From: Candidatus Lithacetigena glycinireducens | GTDB lineage: Bacteria; Coprothermobacterota; HKB111 | Direction of reading: 5' to 3' | Length of the DNA stretch: 8,273 nucleotides | NCBI GenBank assembly: GCA_018725485.1 | Contig: QLUP01000040.1 | Location: forward strand, 1-8,273 | Shown: positions 1-6,549 of the stretch, piece by piece | Layout of the letters: every line of letters starts with the position of its first letter | Position numbering within the stretch: position 1 is the stretch's first letter | Made by a program: the position numbers and the translations under genes | The notes under the pieces: generated by a model | Told to the model about the DNA's origin: nothing | Database searches by the model: none | What the model saw: the letters and a program-made list of their open reading frames with translations, nothing else

Positions 1-77
1 CCAGGGGTGCGCATACGGATTAGAAACCCATGAGTCCTGCTTCTTTTCTTTTTTTTAGGTTGGTAGGTTCTTTTCAT
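1..77 (-). CDS. rpmH: 50S ribosomal protein L34, N-terminal part (runs off the left edge)
   Basis: The minus strand from the ATG at 77-75 reads [18 protein letters not shown] and continues LIRMRTPG to the window edge. This is the near-invariant N-terminus of L34, the small, very basic protein of the large ribosomal subunit. Only about 25 of the usual 44-46 residues are inside the window. Its position beside dnaA and its divergent orientation match the classical rpmH-dnaA arrangement. The 13 bases before the ATG (TAAGATTAAG and neighbours) contain no convincing Shine-Dalgarno sequence. The stop codon of the iscB gene lies 7 bases upstream on the same strand, so the native leader of rpmH appears displaced or replaced by the inserted element. 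Identification is nearly certain despite the short length. Confidence 0.95.
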
Positions 78-84
78 CTTAATC

Positions 85-1287
85 TTATGCGACGGAGACC
101 CCATCCGTAAGGGAGGGGGGGAGTCGTAGCCTCCTTTCAATTAATAAAGTTTTAGCCCTCTCTAAAAGAGAGGGTTGCTTGTAGCAAGCCGATGAATGCA
201 CTTTAGTGCCATTTAACTGTCTCAAGTCAAAATAGCCCGTAGTTCTTCTACCAAAGATAAAACACTCCATACCTTTCCACATCACCTTATCGTATCTCTG
301 GAAACCACGGACAAGTCTGGGAGCCGTATTCCTAATATGCGACCTATCTCTCTTGAAGAGCTTTCTGTTACATTTACGAACTTGCCTGATAAAAAATTGG
401 GGGATCGGTCTTCCCTGACAGTTTCCACCAGCAATCACAAAAGCATCATTTGAATGGGACTTGGATAATCCGAGTTCAATGCGCTTGCTCTTAGTGATAT
501 AGCCATAATTAACTACATTGCCAGACTCTCTGAGCCTATTGACCAGCATCCACCTGACAGTAGACATAAGGGTCTCAGCCTTAAATCCCTTAGAGGGTTT
601 AATATCCAAAACCAGTTTCTTCTTAGAGACCTTTTGGTGGCAGGTATTGCACAAAGTAATCAGATTATCAGGTCTGTCCCCGCCTGTCTGTCTGGATACC
701 CTGTGGTGGATTTCAAGAATCGGGTCCTTAGATTTTCCCTTACAGTGCTGACAGGTGTGATCATCTCTGTAAAGCACATACTCTCTGGTATTCCAGAAGT
801 CTTTTTGAATTCCGTTTTGATAGTCAGTACCAGAGATATCGGGATTCTTAATCTTCTGGGTATCGAAAGCAGCCACTCCTACCTTGATTCGAGAAACAGG
901 AAGAATACTCTTAACCCGATTGATAACTTTAATATGGCTATCAAATTTATTCTGGATGGAAGGAGCGAGCCAGCCTTCGGGCTTCTTTCTGTTAAGGAAT
1001 CTTGGTTGGCGATACCAGGTGTTTCTACTGCGCCTTGCTCTCCTATACTGCCTTCTCTCTGAGTTAAGCTTAACCATATCGGTTCTCAGTGCAACCTCAG
1101 AAGAGTAAAGTTCTTGCTTCTCGGTAACAGCGGAAAGTCCGATATAGGTGTAACCACTGTCCACTCCGAGGGCTATGGGTTGTTTTGACTCCCCAGTTGC
1201 GTAAAGAAGCTGAAGGGTGAATGGCGTTCTGTTGACTACCACAGCTTTATTCTGCCTAAGCAGCATTTCTTGTTTCCATAGGAGCAA
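85..1287 (-). CDS. iscB: IscB-type RNA-guided nuclease (RuvC-HNH), RuvC-II Glu replaced by Gly
   Basis: The 400-residue product has the IscB layout. RuvC-I is at about 38-53 (GVDSG, Asp43). An arginine-rich bridge helix of the RRXRR family covers about 78-100. RuvC-II is at about 132-146 (FDTQKIKNP). The HNH domain at about 178-222 has CxxC pairs at 179/182 and 213/216, His194-His195, Asn208 and His217. RuvC-III is at about 276-288 ([12 protein letters not shown], His278, Asp281), followed by a C-terminal domain ending near GYFDLR...LLER. Known IscB proteins use an omega-RNA to find and cut DNA next to a short flanking motif. The RuvC-II motif normally reads V-E-V before FD; here it reads V-G-V (Gly137, codon GGA at 879-877), so non-target-strand cleavage may be lost while HNH looks intact. 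The N-terminal PLMP domain is mostly missing: an in-frame TAA lies at 1296-1294, two codons before the TTG start. No strong ribosome site is seen. No tnpA is nearby. Confidence 0.9.
88..128 (-). repeat. Right-end hairpin of the iscB element
   Basis: Outer arms CGAC (90-93) and GTCG (123-126) extend by a G-T and a T-A pair to 88 and 128. The interior CCCC/GGGG runs pair around a short loop. The hairpin overlaps the last codons of iscB and ends 11 bases before the rpmH ATG. Similar G/C-rich hairpins mark the right ends of IS200/IS605-family elements. The assignment rests on position and folding by eye only. Confidence 0.5.
154..176. repeat. Perfect 8-bp inverted repeat inside the iscB 3' end
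   Basis: CCCTCTCT (156-163) and AGAGAGGG (167-174) form a perfect stem with a three-base loop, and G-T and A-T pairs extend it to 154-176. It lies within the codons for the C-terminal tail after the LLER motif. There is no T-run on either strand, so it does not look like an intrinsic terminator. It may be part of the structured right end of the element. Confidence 0.45.
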
Positions 1288-1388
1288 TTGCCCTTAAGCC
1301 TTACGGCTCAAGCCCCTTCCGTATCTTTTCCGAGGGTGATTTTCCCTCAAAGGGAGGGGTGATTGACTTCTAACCTCCTTTAGTCTAT
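1288..1388 (-). ncRNA. Candidate omega-RNA (HEARO-like) scaffold upstream of iscB
   Basis: In known IscB systems the guide RNA scaffold lies directly upstream of the iscB reading frame, with the guide at its 5' end taken from flanking DNA. The roughly 100 bases upstream of this iscB are strongly structured. An 8-bp stem (one G-T) is closed by a GTAA tetraloop of GNRA type at 1312-1293, a short stem TCCCT/AGGGA lies at 1355-1343, competing GAGGG/CCCTC pairings span 1332-1358, and an AAAGGAGG/CCTCCCTT-type pairing spans 1381-1350. GGGTGATT occurs twice on the plus strand (1334-1341, 1357-1364). The region is shorter than the roughly 200 nt of typical scaffolds, so it may be compact, may run into iscB, or may be a remnant. 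If functional, the guide would be the minus-strand sequence just 5' of it, around 1389-1410. Confidence 0.4.
1293..1312 (-). other. GNRA-capped 8-bp hairpin just upstream of iscB
   Basis: On the minus strand CTTGAGCC and GGCTTAAG form an 8-bp stem with one G-T pair around GTAA. The TAA inside the 3' arm is the in-frame stop that separates iscB from upstream coding potential. A tetraloop-capped stem here suggests a structured RNA, not coding sequence. Confidence 0.5.
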
Positions 1389-1403
1389 TTACCATTATGG
1401 TAA
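1389..1403. promoter_or_regulatory. 15-base perfect palindrome between the iscB element and dnaA
   Basis: TTACCAT-T-ATGGTAA has perfect 7-base arms. It sits at the putative left boundary of the iscB element and about 100 bases upstream of dnaA. It could be an operator for the divergent rpmH/dnaA promoters, or the outermost left-end hairpin of the element. The sequence alone does not decide between these. Confidence 0.4.
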
Positions 1404-1506
1404 GTAAAATTATATTATAAATCGCTTAAAAGTGCTATTATATTTATTACCTGAATAGGTTAAATTAATATATCCTGCACTAAAAAAGCGAAGGAGTAAA
1501 AAGTAG
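1404..1506. promoter_or_regulatory. AT-rich dnaA upstream region with divergent promoter potential
   Basis: This spacer is very AT-rich. On the minus strand two overlapping TATAAT words lie at 1409-1419 and a third at 1437-1442. They could drive iscB and rpmH, but no good -35 is seen. On the plus strand TTACCA (1389-1394) and TATTAT (1413-1418) are 18 bases apart, a weak candidate for dnaA. The dnaA Shine-Dalgarno AAGGAG is at 1491-1496. No consensus DnaA box was found here, so autoregulation through classic boxes in this leader is not evident. Confidence 0.3.
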
Positions 1507-2856
1507 TTGGAAGAGATTCGACCTGCCTGGATGGAAGCTTTAAAAGAGATAAAACAGAAGGTTTCCCAACCAGTTTTTGAGATGTGGATTAAACCTATTT
1601 CCATTTCCAGGTTTACCCCTGAAGCCATCACCCTGGTGGTGCCTTCCGAATTTGCCCGGGATTGGCTCACTTCTAATTGTCTTAACCTTATCCAGGACGC
1701 TCTTAACCTTCGCCTTAATTCACCGGTTAAAGTTGATTTTACGGTTAAAGAAGCGGAAAAAATGGTAACTCCCCCCGCCCTCCGCTTTGAAGAAGCAGAA
1801 GAAGACGAAGAGATAACCGAAGACCATACCATAAATAATTTATATACTTTTGACCGATTTGTGGTAGGAAGTAGCAATAAGCTGGCCTATGCTACTTCCC
1901 GCGCGGTAGCGGACAGTCCCGGTAAGGCTTATAACCCTCTTTTTATTTATGGAGGCGTGGGACTGGGAAAAACCCACCTACTGCACGCTATTGCCAACCG
2001 GGTAAGAGAAAAATATAAAAGAAAAAAATTCCTTTATGTATCCTGTGAAAAATTCGTAAATGAGTTAATCAAAGCCATAGGCGAAAGGAAGACCGGTGAA
2101 TTTCAAAATAAATACCGCCATGTGGATGTACTCCTTATTGATGATGTCCAGTTTTTAAGCGGTAAGGAACGAACCCAGGAAGAGTTTTTCCACACTTTCA
2201 ACACCCTGTACGAAACGCGCAAGCAGGTGGTCATGACCTCGGACAGACTTCCGCGCGAAATACCCAATTTAGAAGAGAGGCTGCGCTCTCGCTTTGAGTG
2301 GGGTTTAATGGCTGATATAGACACTCCTGATTTTGAAACCCGGGTAGCCATATTAAGGAATAAAGTAATTAATAACCTGAAACAAAAAGACTCCATACCT
2401 AATGAAGTCCTGGAATATATTGCTTCTTTGATTACCGAAAACATTCGGGAATTAGAAGGAGCGTTAAACAGGGTAATGGCTGTCTCGTCCCTGCAGGAAC
2501 TTCCTCTTACTCTCACCTTAGCCCAGGATGTATTGAAGGGGGTCTTTGAAAAACCTGAAAGAGCAAAACCAACCTTAGAAGATATTCAGGAAGCCATTTC
2601 CCGCTACTTCAATATCAAAAAAGAAGATATTACCTCCACCCGAAGAACCCAGGACATTGTTCAAGCCAGGCAGATTGCTATGTATCTTTCTCGCGAACTT
2701 ACCAACCATTCTTTATTAACCATTGGGCGGTGGTTCGGTAAAAAAAATCACGCTACGGTTTTACATGCCTGTGAAAAGGTAAAGAAGGATATTTCAGATA
2801 ACTCTGATTTTAAGAGAGTTATTGACTCTATTTTTTCCACCCTGAAAAAGCACTGA
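1507..2856 (+). CDS. dnaA: Chromosomal replication initiator DnaA
   Basis: The 449-residue product is full length for DnaA, the AAA+ ATPase that binds oriC, opens the duplex and helps load the helicase. Domain I is at about 1-85, a short acidic linker at about 92-108, and the AAA+ core at about 110-330. The core has Walker A GGVGLGKT (149-156), Walker B LLIDDVQF (209-216), sensor 1 TSD (244-246), the arginine-finger region EERLRSRF (256-263) and sensor 2 RELEGALNR (314-322). Domain IV (about 355-449) carries IVQARQIAMYL and the signature helix. That signature reads GKKNHATVLHA where most bacteria have GGRDHTTVLHA, so residues equivalent to E. coli Asp433 and Thr435 are Asn414 and Ala416; His415 and Arg388 are kept. 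The TTG start is supported by AAGGAG ten bases upstream and by the usual distance to the conserved tryptophan. dnaN follows after the putative origin. Confidence 0.98.
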   Translation: MEEIRPAWMEALKEIKQKVSQPVFEMWIKPISISRFTPEAITLVVPSEFARDWLTSNCLNLIQDALNLRLNSPVKVDFTVKEAEKMVTPPALRFEEAEEDEEITEDHTINNLYTFDRFVVGSSNKLAYATSRAVADSPGKAYNPLFIYGGVGLGKTHLLHAIANRVREKYKRKKFLYVSCEKFVNELIKAIGERKTGEFQNKYRHVDVLLIDDVQFLSGKERTQEEFFHTFNTLYETRKQVVMTSDRLPREIPNLEERLRSRFEWGLMADIDTPDFETRVAILRNKVINNLKQKDSIPNEVLEYIASLITENIRELEGALNRVMAVSSLQELPLTLTLAQDVLKGVFEKPERAKPTLEDIQEAISRYFNIKKEDITSTRRTQDIVQARQIAMYLSRELTNHSLLTIGRWFGKKNHATVLHACEKVKKDISDNSDFKRVIDSIFSTLKKH

Positions 2857-2894
2857 TTTATAAAAATAGCCTGAATTCTATAATATATTGAAGT

Positions 2895-2949
2895 TGTTAA
2901 CATTATGTTAATAAGTTGTTAATAAGTAAGTTAATAGTTGGTTAAAAAC
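2895..2949. repeat. Helically phased GTTAA repeats including a tandem 11-mer
   Basis: The 11-mer TGTTAATAAGT occurs twice in tandem (2906-2916, 2917-2927). A diverged copy, TGTTAACATTA, directly precedes it (2895-2905). Two further GTTAA cores follow at 2930 and 2941. A separate near-copy, TGTTTATAAGT, lies at 2980-2990. The spacing of 11, 11, 12 and 11 bases would place the cores on one face of the helix, as expected for a cooperative initiator-binding array. Confidence 0.7.
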
Positions 2950-3060
2950 TACCGCTTTGCTAACATAAATAGTGTTTGATGTTTATAAGTAAGATTTATC
3001 AACCAGTTACTATCAAAACAGGTATAGGAAAGTGAGTTGTAAAAATAAAGCTTTTTTTAT

Positions 3061-3112
3061 TTATTAACAAAATATTTGTACTATTATTACTATAAAAGAT
3101 ATAAAATATTTT
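3061..3112. other. Candidate basal unwinding site: DnaA box, DnaA-trio-like tract and AT-rich segment
   Basis: The box TTATTAACA (3061-3069) is followed, 11 bases on, by CTA-TTA-TTA-CTA (3081-3092); the minus strand reads TAG-TAA-TAA-TAG. Repeated 3'-GAT-5' style trinucleotides beside a DnaA box are the DnaA-trio described for B. subtilis, where DnaA assembles on single strand. The next 20 bases are almost only A and T. The 11-base AT-rich gap to the box is longer than expected, so this remains a candidate. Confidence 0.45.
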
Positions 3113-3123
3113 AGTAGTACTAA
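3111..3123. promoter_or_regulatory. 13-base perfect palindrome just before the dnaN ribosome site
   Basis: TTAGTA-G-TACTAA has perfect 6-base arms and ends four bases before the AGGAGG of dnaN (3128-3133). It could be an operator or a small leader hairpin that affects dnaN translation. No regulator is indicated by the window itself. Confidence 0.35.
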
Positions 3124-3140
3124 GTTCAGGAGGACTTAAA

Positions 3141-4265
3141 ATGAACAAACCTGTAGAAATAAAAGTAAAAAGGAAAATACTTTCTTCGGTACTGGACAAA
3201 ACCAGTTTATCTTTACCTGCGGGAAAAGCAACTTATCCTTATTTAAGCCAGGTACTTTTGGAATACAATAATGAAAAAATTAAGTTAACCGCTACCGATT
3301 TAAAAAAAGCCATTACCACTTCCATTGAGTATCATTGTGAAAGTGAGGGTTCAATATTGTTCCCCGGTAAATTAGTATCGGATATCCTGAGAAAATTAAA
3401 TGAAGAGGAGGTTAGTTTATTTCTGAACAACAACCAATTGATTTTAAAAACCGATAAGTCCTCTTTTTCCTTCCAGCTAATGCCGGTAGATGAATTCCCC
3501 TTAATACCTTTTGCCGAAGATAGTCGTGAATTAAAGATAAGTCAATCTGTCTTATCTACCATACTTAAACAGGGTTTATATTCAGCCTCCAAGGACATAG
3601 AAAGGGAAGGTTTAAGTGGTGCTTTGTTGACCAATAACAAAAACCTGTTTAGAATGGTCAGCACCGACGGGCACAGACTTAGTGTGGGAGAAGGGGAATT
3701 GATTTCTTTTCCCAACCAGAACCTTAATACTATGATAAGCGCTTCCGATTTAAAATTGGTGGAATATTTAAATAGTGGGGAAGATATATCCATAAGGTGG
3801 GACCAGAAACAGGTTGATTTTATTCAGGGGAACACCCATATGACTTTCAAGTTGTTAGGAGCTAAATTCCCACCCTACGAAGAAGTTATTCCCCGCACCT
3901 GCACCACTATCTTAAATATTAAAACCCTACCTTTACTCCAATCATTAGACCGCTTAACCACCTTAAATCAGCACCAACCCATTAAATTCTCCGTGGGGGA
4001 TTTACTAACACTAACCATAAATGTTGCTGGCGTGGGAGAAGGAGTAGAAACAGTGGATGTGGTTGAATTCACCGGTAATAAACTCGATGTTTTTATTAAT
4101 CCCCGCTATTTTATGGAATCTCTGAAAAATAGCAATTCAGATACTCTTTTCTTTGGTTTTAACAGCTCTCAGAGTCCCATTTTAATAAGCAATCAGAAAA
4201 TACCTAAAACCGATGACCTGGTAGGAGGATACTATCTGGCACTCATCATGCCCATGCAAATTTAG
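3141..4265 (+). CDS. dnaN: DNA polymerase III beta subunit (sliding clamp)
   Basis: The 374-residue product matches the bacterial beta clamp, the ring that tethers polymerase III and many repair proteins to DNA. Visible family motifs are PYLSQVLLE and LTATDLKKAI (about 33-57), FRMVSTDGHRLS (about 171-182), FPPYEEVIP (about 243-251), FINPRYFMESL (about 315-325) and the C-terminal MPMQI in place of the usual MPMRL or MPVRL. Length is normal for the family (about 365-380) and the three-domain layout is complete. The ATG is preceded by AGGAGG at a 7-base spacing. It lies directly after the putative origin and the TTAGTA/TACTAA palindrome. Downstream there is no recF or S4-domain yaaA gene; a secreted protein frame begins at once, and dnaN is likely the first gene of that operon. 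Confidence 0.97.
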   Translation: MNKPVEIKVKRKILSSVLDKTSLSLPAGKATYPYLSQVLLEYNNEKIKLTATDLKKAITTSIEYHCESEGSILFPGKLVSDILRKLNEEEVSLFLNNNQLILKTDKSSFSFQLMPVDEFPLIPFAEDSRELKISQSVLSTILKQGLYSASKDIEREGLSGALLTNNKNLFRMVSTDGHRLSVGEGELISFPNQNLNTMISASDLKLVEYLNSGEDISIRWDQKQVDFIQGNTHMTFKLLGAKFPPYEEVIPRTCTTILNIKTLPLLQSLDRLTTLNQHQPIKFSVGDLLTLTINVAGVGEGVETVDVVEFTGNKLDVFINPRYFMESLKNSNSDTLFFGFNSSQSPILISNQKIPKTDDLVGGYYLALIMPMQI

Positions 4266-4476
4266 ATTTATAACGGTATTTATACTTCTACTTTTACTGA
4301 TTACTCCCCACTTAACTTATGGGCAGACATCACGACTTATTTATAGTTACGATAATACCCGCCATCTGCTTTTCCATCACAATTACCTGTGGGCGGCTAC
4401 CTCTGGTGGTCTGGTAAGGTACGAAGCTAATACTGGAAGGCGAATTAACTTAACCTCCTTAAATGGCTTAACCTCC
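4225..4476 (+). other. Upstream coding extension of the propeller-SLH gene: signal peptide and first blade, without a canonical start codon
   Basis: The frame of the gene at 4477-6549 stays open back to 4225, after a TAG at 4222. From 4264 it encodes a clear signal peptide: Arg, then a hydrophobic run containing ILLLLLITPHLTYG and a likely signal peptidase I site before QTS. It then encodes a complete propeller motif, LWAATSGGLVRYEA. This is real coding sequence because the blade repeats the downstream pattern. Yet there is no in-frame ATG, GTG or TTG before 4477. Possible starts are ATC at 4234, five bases after GGAGG (4224-4228), ATA at 4270, or entry by ribosome slippage at the end of dnaN. 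Removing one T from the TTT at 4261-4263 would fuse the frame to the dnaN codons ATG-CAA-ATT, so an indel in the sequence is also possible. Confidence 0.75.
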
Positions 4477-6549
4477 ATGGAGGTTCTCTACCTTTACCCC
4501 CACGAGAAAGGTATTTTTGCCGGGACTCTACAAGGGGGGTTAGTATTATTAGACAGGTTGGGTAGAATAAAAAGCATTTATGACCAGGCTAATGGACTGA
4601 AAGATACTACCATAACTGCTATATACAAAGGAAAGGATGGATTTTTCACGGGTACTTCTTCGGGGCTGTATTTTTACGATAAAAGAATATTCATTCGCCT
4701 ACCCGGTTTCCCCACGCTTCAGGTAAATGACCTTAAAGAAAGAAAAAACAACCTCTATATAGCCACCCCCTTAGGTTTATACGAACTTTCTCTCTCTAAT
4801 AAAGCCTTGAAAAAAATAGAAATACCAGGTTTTAAGGGGAGCATAATTACCATGGAAGTTAGTCCCGATTTTATTTACCTGGGAACCTCGCAGGGACTTA
4901 TAAGGTATAAACCAGAAACAGCCGAGACCCGGGTGTTAGGGGTAAAAGAAGGACTCCCCGTAAGCGTAATATTATCTCTTAAGATCTCAGATGGACTTAT
5001 CTATATAGGAACCCAGAGAGGGTTAAGAATAGCCAACCTAAACCTGCTTATGCAAAACCTAAGCCTTCCAGCGGAAGTAAAAAAAACCGAGATACAAACA
5101 ATTGAAGTAGGTAGAGGTTTTATCTTTGCTGGAACCAGCAAAGGCGTGGTAAGGATGAACAGGAACAACCTGTTAAGAAGGGTGGTATTTGCCAGTTTGA
5201 GCCCGCTTACTTCTAACCGCATAACGGCGCTCGCTAAAAATAAAACCGAACTTTTTATCGGTACTGCAAATGGTTTTTTACTTTATAACGAAAAGTTAAA
5301 TTATCTCAGCGAAATCATTAAAGGGGTTGTAGTTAACGATGTAGTTCAATTAAGTGATGATTACTACATAGCTACCAACACAGGCTTGTATCGCTACAAT
5401 ATAACCCAGAAAAAAGTATTGGAATCTTTTGATGTCCGTAGAGGGTTGTTTCATAACCAGGTATTAGATTTATTAGTTTATGAAGATAAACTTATTCTGG
5501 CTACTAAGCTGGGAGTTCAGGTATATGAGCCCCTCAGACGGAAGTTTGAGGCATATTTTCTAAGGGATGTTATATCCATTTTCCTCAAAGAAGATATTAT
5601 TTATGCTGGTACGGTGAATGGTCTTTACCGAAAGGCAATGCTGGCTGCCGATTTTACCAGGATTACCTTTAGCGGAGCCCCCACTTCTCCGGTAAGAAGT
5701 ATCGTATCTACCAAAAAAGGGCTTCTCTTATCTACTGGTAGATCTGTTTTAGAACTTAACTTAACCAATTCCTCCTTTTCCAGTTATAGCCTGCCGTTTT
5801 CAGCCAATATTTTAAAGTTAGCCGAAGAAGAAGACTATATATTTTATTTAACCGAAAATGGCTTTTACATTCAGGACAACATTTATGGTACTACCTGGGG
5901 AGTTAATTCACTTGATGGACTACCTTCCTCTACCGTACTTTCATTTTTAAAAGATGGAAATAAGGTTTATCTGGGAACCTCCAATGGGTTATTTATAGGT
6001 GGTTTTAATGCTCTTTCCCGGTCCCTTTTCTTTGATACTACCTTCCACCCACTCAGACGTATAATTGAAAACGCTTCAGTAAAGGGTATGGTGGCAGGTT
6101 TTCCAGACGGAAGCTTTAAACCCAACCATATAACTACCCGGGCGCAATTTGCAGTCTTGCTAATTAAGGCCCTGGATATATCACCTAGTAAGCCCATATA
6201 TTCTTCATTTACTGATGTGTCCCTGACTCACTGGGCTTCACCTTTTATTGAGGAACTGGTAAAAAGAAAAGTTTTGATAGCTGGCGGGAGGTTCTATCCA
6301 AATAGCGAAATAAAGAGGGAAGAATCTGCCGAGTGGGTAGCGCTGGCCTTAAAATTGCCTTTTCAACGGCCAGCCAGACCATCTTTTAAGGATGTCGCTT
6401 CCACTTATCCCTACTACTTACTTATTGAAGCTGTCCATCGCGAAAGAATTTTTATGGGAACCCCAGCAGGTAACTTCCTTCCCCGTTTTCCCTTAAGTAG
6501 AGCCGAAGCAGTTACCATACTTATGAGGATAAGAGATGAAAAACCTTAA
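4477..6549 (+). CDS. Exported two-propeller protein with three C-terminal SLH domains
   Basis: From the first canonical ATG the product has 690 residues; the true protein starts further upstream (about 760). It consists of repeated blades with the core x-G/A-T-x-x-G-L followed by a strand, as in the 'two-component regulator propeller' (Reg_prop) family. About 14 copies can be counted when the upstream one is included (AGTLQGG, TGTSSGL, IATPLGL, LGTSQGL, IGTQRGL, AGTSKGV, IGTANGF, IATNTGL, LATKLGV, AGTVNGL, LSTGRSV, YLTENGF, LGTSNGL), which fits two seven-bladed propellers. Three SLH domains follow at about 522-570, 573-625 and 636-690, with motifs GFPDGSFKPN, ITTRAQFA, SFTDV...HWA, FKDV and LSRAEAVTILMRI. 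SLH domains anchor proteins to cell-wall polymers or peptidoglycan, so it should be held at the surface or in the periplasm. There is no histidine kinase or membrane segment, so it is not a classical sensor kinase. Ligand and role are unknown. It overlaps gatC by 14 bases. Confidence 0.88.
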   Translation: MEVLYLYPHEKGIFAGTLQGGLVLLDRLGRIKSIYDQANGLKDTTITAIYKGKDGFFTGTSSGLYFYDKRIFIRLPGFPTLQVNDLKERKNNLYIATPLGLYELSLSNKALKKIEIPGFKGSIITMEVSPDFIYLGTSQGLIRYKPETAETRVLGVKEGLPVSVILSLKISDGLIYIGTQRGLRIANLNLLMQNLSLPAEVKKTEIQTIEVGRGFIFAGTSKGVVRMNRNNLLRRVVFASLSPLTSNRITALAKNKTELFIGTANGFLLYNEKLNYLSEIIKGVVVNDVVQLSDDYYIATNTGLYRYNITQKKVLESFDVRRGLFHNQVLDLLVYEDKLILATKLGVQVYEPLRRKFEAYFLRDVISIFLKEDIIYAGTVNGLYRKAMLAADFTRITFSGAPTSPVRSIVSTKKGLLLSTGRSVLELNLTNSSFSSYSLPFSANILKLAEEEDYIFYLTENGFYIQDNIYGTTWGVNSLDGLPSSTVLSFLKDGNKVYLGTSNGLFIGGFNALSRSLFFDTTFHPLRRIIENASVKGMVAGFPDGSFKPNHITTRAQFAVLLIKALDISPSKPIYSSFTDVSLTHWASPFIEELVKRKVLIAGGRFYPNSEIKREESAEWVALALKLPFQRPARPSFKDVASTYPYYLLIEAVHRERIFMGTPAGNFLPRFPLSRAEAVTILMRIRDEKP

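Follow-up and report, generated by a model that had tools for sequence, protein, structure and literature searches.

The DnaA protein encoded in the window, the 8,273-nucleotide stretch of Candidatus Lithacetigena glycinireducens DNA analysed here, carries replacements in the recognition helix predicted to read the 3′ part of the DnaA box, and all four predicted boxes of the adjacent dnaA-dnaN spacer have A instead of C at base 6 (A6 and C6 hereafter). We consider it probable that the spacer is an origin with TTATNAACA boxes, and that box base 6 (C to A) and the recognition helix of DnaA changed in step. The likely protein-box pairing is T435A with C6 to A or G (DnaA residues in E. coli numbering). 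The combination of A435 and C6 loss turns up repeatedly, in about four lineages, with one A435 lineage as an exception.

Gene content of the window

The source assembly (G000, contig C140) measures 1.24 Mb, is 83% complete and consists of 204 contigs. The gene order in the window is an IscB-type insert, dnaA, dnaN, a propeller protein with S-layer domains, gatC and gatA. The dnaA product matches the Pfam families Bac_DnaA (1.2e-71), Bac_DnaA_C (9.1e-30) and DnaA_N (1e-14): the N-terminal, AAA+ and C-terminal HTH domains of the DnaA family are all present above the Pfam cut-off. Comparisons within the genus use G001, the sole other species found for it, with an assembly 93% complete; the phylum as a whole is thinly sampled. 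The relevant features, in window coordinates, are the following.

1507-2856, forward strand: dnaA, 449 aa, TTG start; the assembly's sole match to DnaA domain IV (single PF08299 match, G000)
2716-2718, forward strand: codon of L404, equivalent of E. coli P423 in helix 4 (position table)
2737-2769, forward strand: GKKNHATVLHA, start of recognition helix 5, residues 411-421 (alignment to 1j1v)
2857-3140, no strand: dnaA-dnaN spacer, 284 bp, 78% AT; probable origin (box cluster and conservation)
2895-2903, reverse strand: ATGTTAACA, weak third unit of an 11-bp array, 2 mismatches to TTATTAACA; identical in G001
2906-2914, reverse strand: predicted DnaA box TTATTAACA, exact match; kept in G001
2917-2925, reverse strand: predicted DnaA box TTATTAACA, 11 bp from the 2906 box; kept in G001
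2980-2988, reverse strand: predicted DnaA box TTATAAACA, exact match; kept in G001
2996-3004, forward strand: possible weak box TTATCAACC; TTATTAACC in G001, base 6 likewise A
3061-3069, forward strand: predicted DnaA box TTATTAACA, closest to the trio, exact match; kept in G001
3081-3092, forward strand: DnaA-trio CTATTATTACTA, 11 bp past the 3061 box; 12/12 identical in G001
3141-4265, forward strand: dnaN, sliding clamp, with three DNA_pol3_beta Pfam domains

The propeller-repeat protein with S-layer homology domains (window 4264-6549) lies directly 3′ of dnaN, ahead of gatC and gatA, and is an odd companion for replication genes. On the 5′ side of dnaA, a 1290-bp insert (window 78-1367) contains the IscB-type ORF (85-1287, minus strand), with RRXRR and HNH domains. 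Its site is empty in G001, where window 1-77 joins 1368-3140. G001 has a different IscB copy, of 479 aa and with a HEARO RNA at 4251-4477, on contig C146 (L111 3002-4477), which separates the origin boxes from dnaN and lies immediately past the former dnaN ribosome-binding site. Separate IscB elements thus flank dnaA on opposite sides in the two sister species. The window ORF is without the N-terminal part present in the G001 copy, a HEARO RNA search of the window insert gave no match at the gathering cut-off, and this insert may be decayed.

Recognition residues of DnaA

When the protein is aligned without gaps to domain IV of E. coli DnaA (1j1v), N414 falls on D433 and A416 on T435, which bears out the first-pass annotation, where Asn414 and Ala416 of the GKKNHATVLHA peptide had been assigned to Asp433 and Thr435. 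H415 (His434) and R380 (Arg399) are kept in the same alignment, and the equivalent of E. coli K415 is R, like in B. subtilis. L404 in place of P423 is a third contact change, absent from that annotation. Out of the base-contact set R399, P423, D433, H434 and T435, only R399 and H434 are kept, the replacements being P423L, D433N and T435A. In E. coli, the major-groove helix that starts at residue 434 reads TnCACA, and the T435M mutant has lost box binding (PMC5742627); P423, D433 and T435 are all listed as base-contact positions (PMC7561715).

The recognition peptide is 97% identical in the sister species. Among 212 distinct DnaAs, a sample ranked by similarity in which residue frequencies are rough, 197 have D and 7 have N at position 433, while at 435 there are 147 with T, 51 with S and 10 with A, and H434 is invariant; the N-H-A combination at 433-435 is confined to the window genus. 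The contact set R399/P423/D433/H434/T435 is typical of DnaA and not required, as its positions vary in the sample.

Boxes and layout of the predicted origin

An exact-match search finds three copies of TTATTAACA in the window, where 0.28 are expected (0 of 200 shuffles reach 3), and zero of TTATCCACA. In the 284-bp spacer, TTATNAACA occurs four times against 0.096 expected, a count that 0 of 5000 dinucleotide shuffles reach. These four are the A6 boxes of the spacer; it holds C6 boxes in neither species, nor the TTATNCACA cluster beside dnaA that marks a canonical origin. The three plus one variant boxes of the first-pass annotation, none of them classic, are therefore all recovered. It had placed their change at bases 5 and 6, and only the second part stands, with A6 in all four. 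E. coli DnaA accepts any base at position 5 (TTWTNCACA; PMC5043019, PMC5742627), and M. tuberculosis DnaA does not discriminate there either (PMC5043019). The informative change is thus C6 to A; base 5, which also varies among the window boxes, was rejected as part of the switch.

All four boxes are present at the same places in G001, one of them shifted by 1 bp. The two species agree in 36/36 box bases and 12/12 trio bases, against 82/125 for the remaining positions of 2938-3080 (Fisher p = 3e-6), and the minus-strand boxes at 2906 and 2917 sit in a block of ~60 bp identical between both. The trio at 3081-3092 reads CTA, TTA, TTA and CTA, the trio strand being its complement (TAG/TAA). A basal unwinding system comprises a DnaA box, a spacer whose length peaks at 10-13 bp, and then at least three trios (PMC8287927); here the box at 3061-3069 is followed by an 11-bp spacer and four trios, all conserved in G001. 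Because conserved boxes and a trio occur in this published layout, the dnaA-dnaN spacer (2857-3140) is likely the chromosome origin, an activity that we infer from the observed conservation and layout. DnaA would bind the 11-bp-spaced pair plus the 3061 box and assemble towards the trio at 3081, where the strands would open.

The first-pass annotation had allowed for a classic-box oriC elsewhere and suggested counting both boxes genome-wide. Across the 83% complete assembly, the sole TTATTAACA cluster is that of the dnaA-dnaN spacer, and TTATCCACA occurs at 16 scattered sites, unclustered and not in excess of its reversed control (19). TTATCCACA clusters are also absent from G001, except for three sites on the foreign-looking contig C273 (L112). 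Considered as a second DnaA of the genus, this contig was rejected: its canonical DnaA-dnaN stands beside Gram-negative envelope-assembly genes, and it is most likely contamination. With 83% completeness and 204 contigs, the window's assembly leaves room for an origin in the unassembled remainder of the genome, the spacer repeats then serving, for example, the control of dnaA or dnaN expression. We regard this as very improbable, given that the 93% complete G001 is without any TTATCCACA cluster, C273 aside, and that boxes and trio are conserved at the customary dnaA-dnaN place.

Contig C51 of G001 (L118 1355-1374) carries two TTATTAACA at 11-bp spacing, matching the host origin. The contig is phage-like, with ParB-methyltransferase and terminase-like ORFs, and the pair is intergenic, after a replication-like gene; the contig may use or titrate host DnaA. 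On C207 (11150-11181; L119 2651-2682), an apparently chromosomal contig of G001, two intergenic TTATTAACA 23 bp apart are possibly a DnaA regulatory site; a search of G000 did not recover the gene next to this pair.

Relatives within the phylum

Families f2 and f3 of the phylum combine D433 with T or S435 and have TTATCCACA beside dnaA: G005 has five copies, G003 four and G002 two, and G004 has twelve in and around dnaA. Alignment of domain IV in relatives, proposed in the first-pass annotation, thus agrees with its reading: the phylum mates keep D433, T/S435 and TTATCCACA clusters. Within the phylum sample, replacement of D433 and T435 and the box change are confined to the window genus. Its position in the DnaA tree is not firm, and a tree constraining the phylum members together is not rejected (p-AU 0.19). 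A contig of G004 apart from dnaA (C48, L121 946-1101) holds five TTATCCACA in 156 bp, possibly a DnaA-titrating or reactivating site.

Residue 435 and box base 6 across lineages

We read residue 435 in 255 distinct DnaAs and counted the TTATNNACA boxes at most 600 bp from dnaA. C6 accounts for 441/626 boxes (70%) with T435 and 99/181 (55%) with S435. The 66 boxes accompanying A435 divide into 3 with C6, 43 with A6, 16 with G6 and 4 with T6. Counted by locus, at least one C6 box is present at 167 of 184 box-bearing T/S435 loci vs 2 of 28 with A435. No T/S435 locus with at least four boxes is without C6 (0/89), and both species of the window genus have four boxes and zero C6; loci with a single box are without C6 in 10/37 cases. 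A6 boxes also occur with T/S435, as a minority, and an A6 box by itself does not require A435.

AT-rich drift could offer another account, in which the AT richness of the spacer (78%) and tolerance of A6 cost the boxes their C, the protein changes being neutral or relaxing specificity only. A6 boxes are indeed common in AT-rich T435 origins (78/202 at flank GC <0.32), and TTATTAACA boxes are predicted in Mycoplasma hominis, whose genome is AT-rich (PMC2751442). At that same composition, however, T435 origins retain C6 in more than half of their boxes (115/202) vs 0/36 for A435, so that base composition alone is insufficient for the loss of C6. Moreover, the altered residue reads DNA and its mutation abolishes binding in E. 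coli (PMC5742627). We therefore judge drift unlikely.

The A435 cases outside the window genus, which itself combines N-H-A with A6 boxes only, differ in detail. The clade around G268 has D-H-A and up to four TTATTAACA; other families of its phylum, with P423 and T/S435, have mostly C6 boxes, and two DnaAs of the clade itself with S435 and S423 (L248, L251) have A6 boxes only. In the phylum of G370, all members read have S-H-A, with TTATTAACA and TTATTGACA boxes, two members having one C6 box in addition. G112 has D-H-A, one TTATCGACA and zero C6, on a contig that stops soon after dnaA and leaves the spacer mostly unseen; its phylum mate G248, with D-H-T (T435), has ten TTATCCACA. The exception is G047 (L104), D-H-A yet with TTATCCACA and TTATTCACA boxes. 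The A435 DnaAs of G259, G289 and G299 have no TTATNNACA box nearby, G299 being the one new case from a targeted search for further A435 DnaAs. S433 with A435 accompanies A6 and G6, and D433 or N433 with A435 mostly A6.

When the window genus is left out, three of the four box-bearing A435 lineages are without or nearly without C6, as are 17/184 T/S435 loci. The chance of this is ~0.003 in a binomial calculation that treats loci as independent, and the true figure is weaker, since single-box loci lose C6 more often. A phylogenetic sign test lacks power, with three supported pairs only; the association between residue 435 and base 6 is strong when counted by locus, but the small number of independent lineages limits its formal significance.

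A real switch might also be driven by another residue (423, 433, or G431K/R432K), with A435 as a mere companion. This would fit the S435 DnaAs of the G268 clade that are without P423 and already A6-only (L248, L251), and the naming of P423 and D433 beside T435 as base-contact positions (PMC7561715). Loss of P423 was nevertheless rejected as the sole cause: among D433 DnaAs with T/S435, it does not lower the use of C6 (145/216 after the loss vs 393/587), and an S-H-A group that retains P423 is without any C6 box. Asn433 was rejected as the main determinant, the four sampled DnaAs with N433 and S/T435 (G143, G084, G222, G081) being without a TTATNAACA cluster. A driver other than residue 435 is, in our estimate, improbable. 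The co-evolved specificity of the first-pass annotation gains partial support as a coupled change, A435 with loss of C6 in several lineages, and not for Asn433, which alone brings no consistent box change.

We thus prefer the reading that DnaA and base 6 changed together, the latter from C to A, with T435A as probably the main determinant, to which P423L and D433N may contribute; both the binding preference and the residue responsible we infer from the observed cross-lineage association. Recurrence of the pairing in unrelated bacteria suggests that one DnaA amino acid helps to set one box letter. A general recognition code, in which residue 435 sets base 6 (T/S reads C; A reads A/G) through several evolutionary switches, is a tentative proposal that falls a little short of even confidence.

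Comparison with known systems

With the DnaA-oriC systems of E. coli and B. subtilis (TTATNCACA), that of the window shares the domain order, a dnaA-adjacent origin, a box cluster, the box-spacer-trio layout, Arg399 and His434; it differs in its all-A6 boxes and its replaced T435, D433 and P423. Epsilonproteobacteria, with TTCAC-core boxes, likewise show a lineage-wide box shift alongside altered residues where helix 5 begins, but their boxes have an invariable T at base 5 and retain C at base 6, and their DnaA keeps D433 and mostly has S at position 435; that base-5 shift is experimentally supported, with the helix-5 changes suggested as its cause (PMC5043019). The TTATTAACA spelling is already reported from mycoplasmas: it is identical, by comparison of boxes alone, in Mycoplasma hominis, M. 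arthritidis and M. mobile, where, unlike in the window, the predicted boxes lie upstream of dnaA in one or two copies (PMC2751442). In Thermotoga maritima, divergent contact residues of DnaA also accompany a divergent box, AAACCTACCACC, which differs throughout, whereas the window boxes depart consistently at a single base of the 9-mer (PMC10225481, PMC7561715). In a literature search covering only a minority of subscription papers, a pairing of T435A with box base 6 did not turn up.

DnaA and its box are commonly regarded as near-constant across bacteria, and origin finders use TTATCCACA by default. A residue-to-base rule, if true, would account for origins without the classic box, would make origins in uncultured phyla easier to predict and would illustrate how an essential initiator can change jointly with the sites that it binds. 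Under the recognition code, if true, the DnaA sequence of an uncultured bacterium would suffice to predict its origin box.
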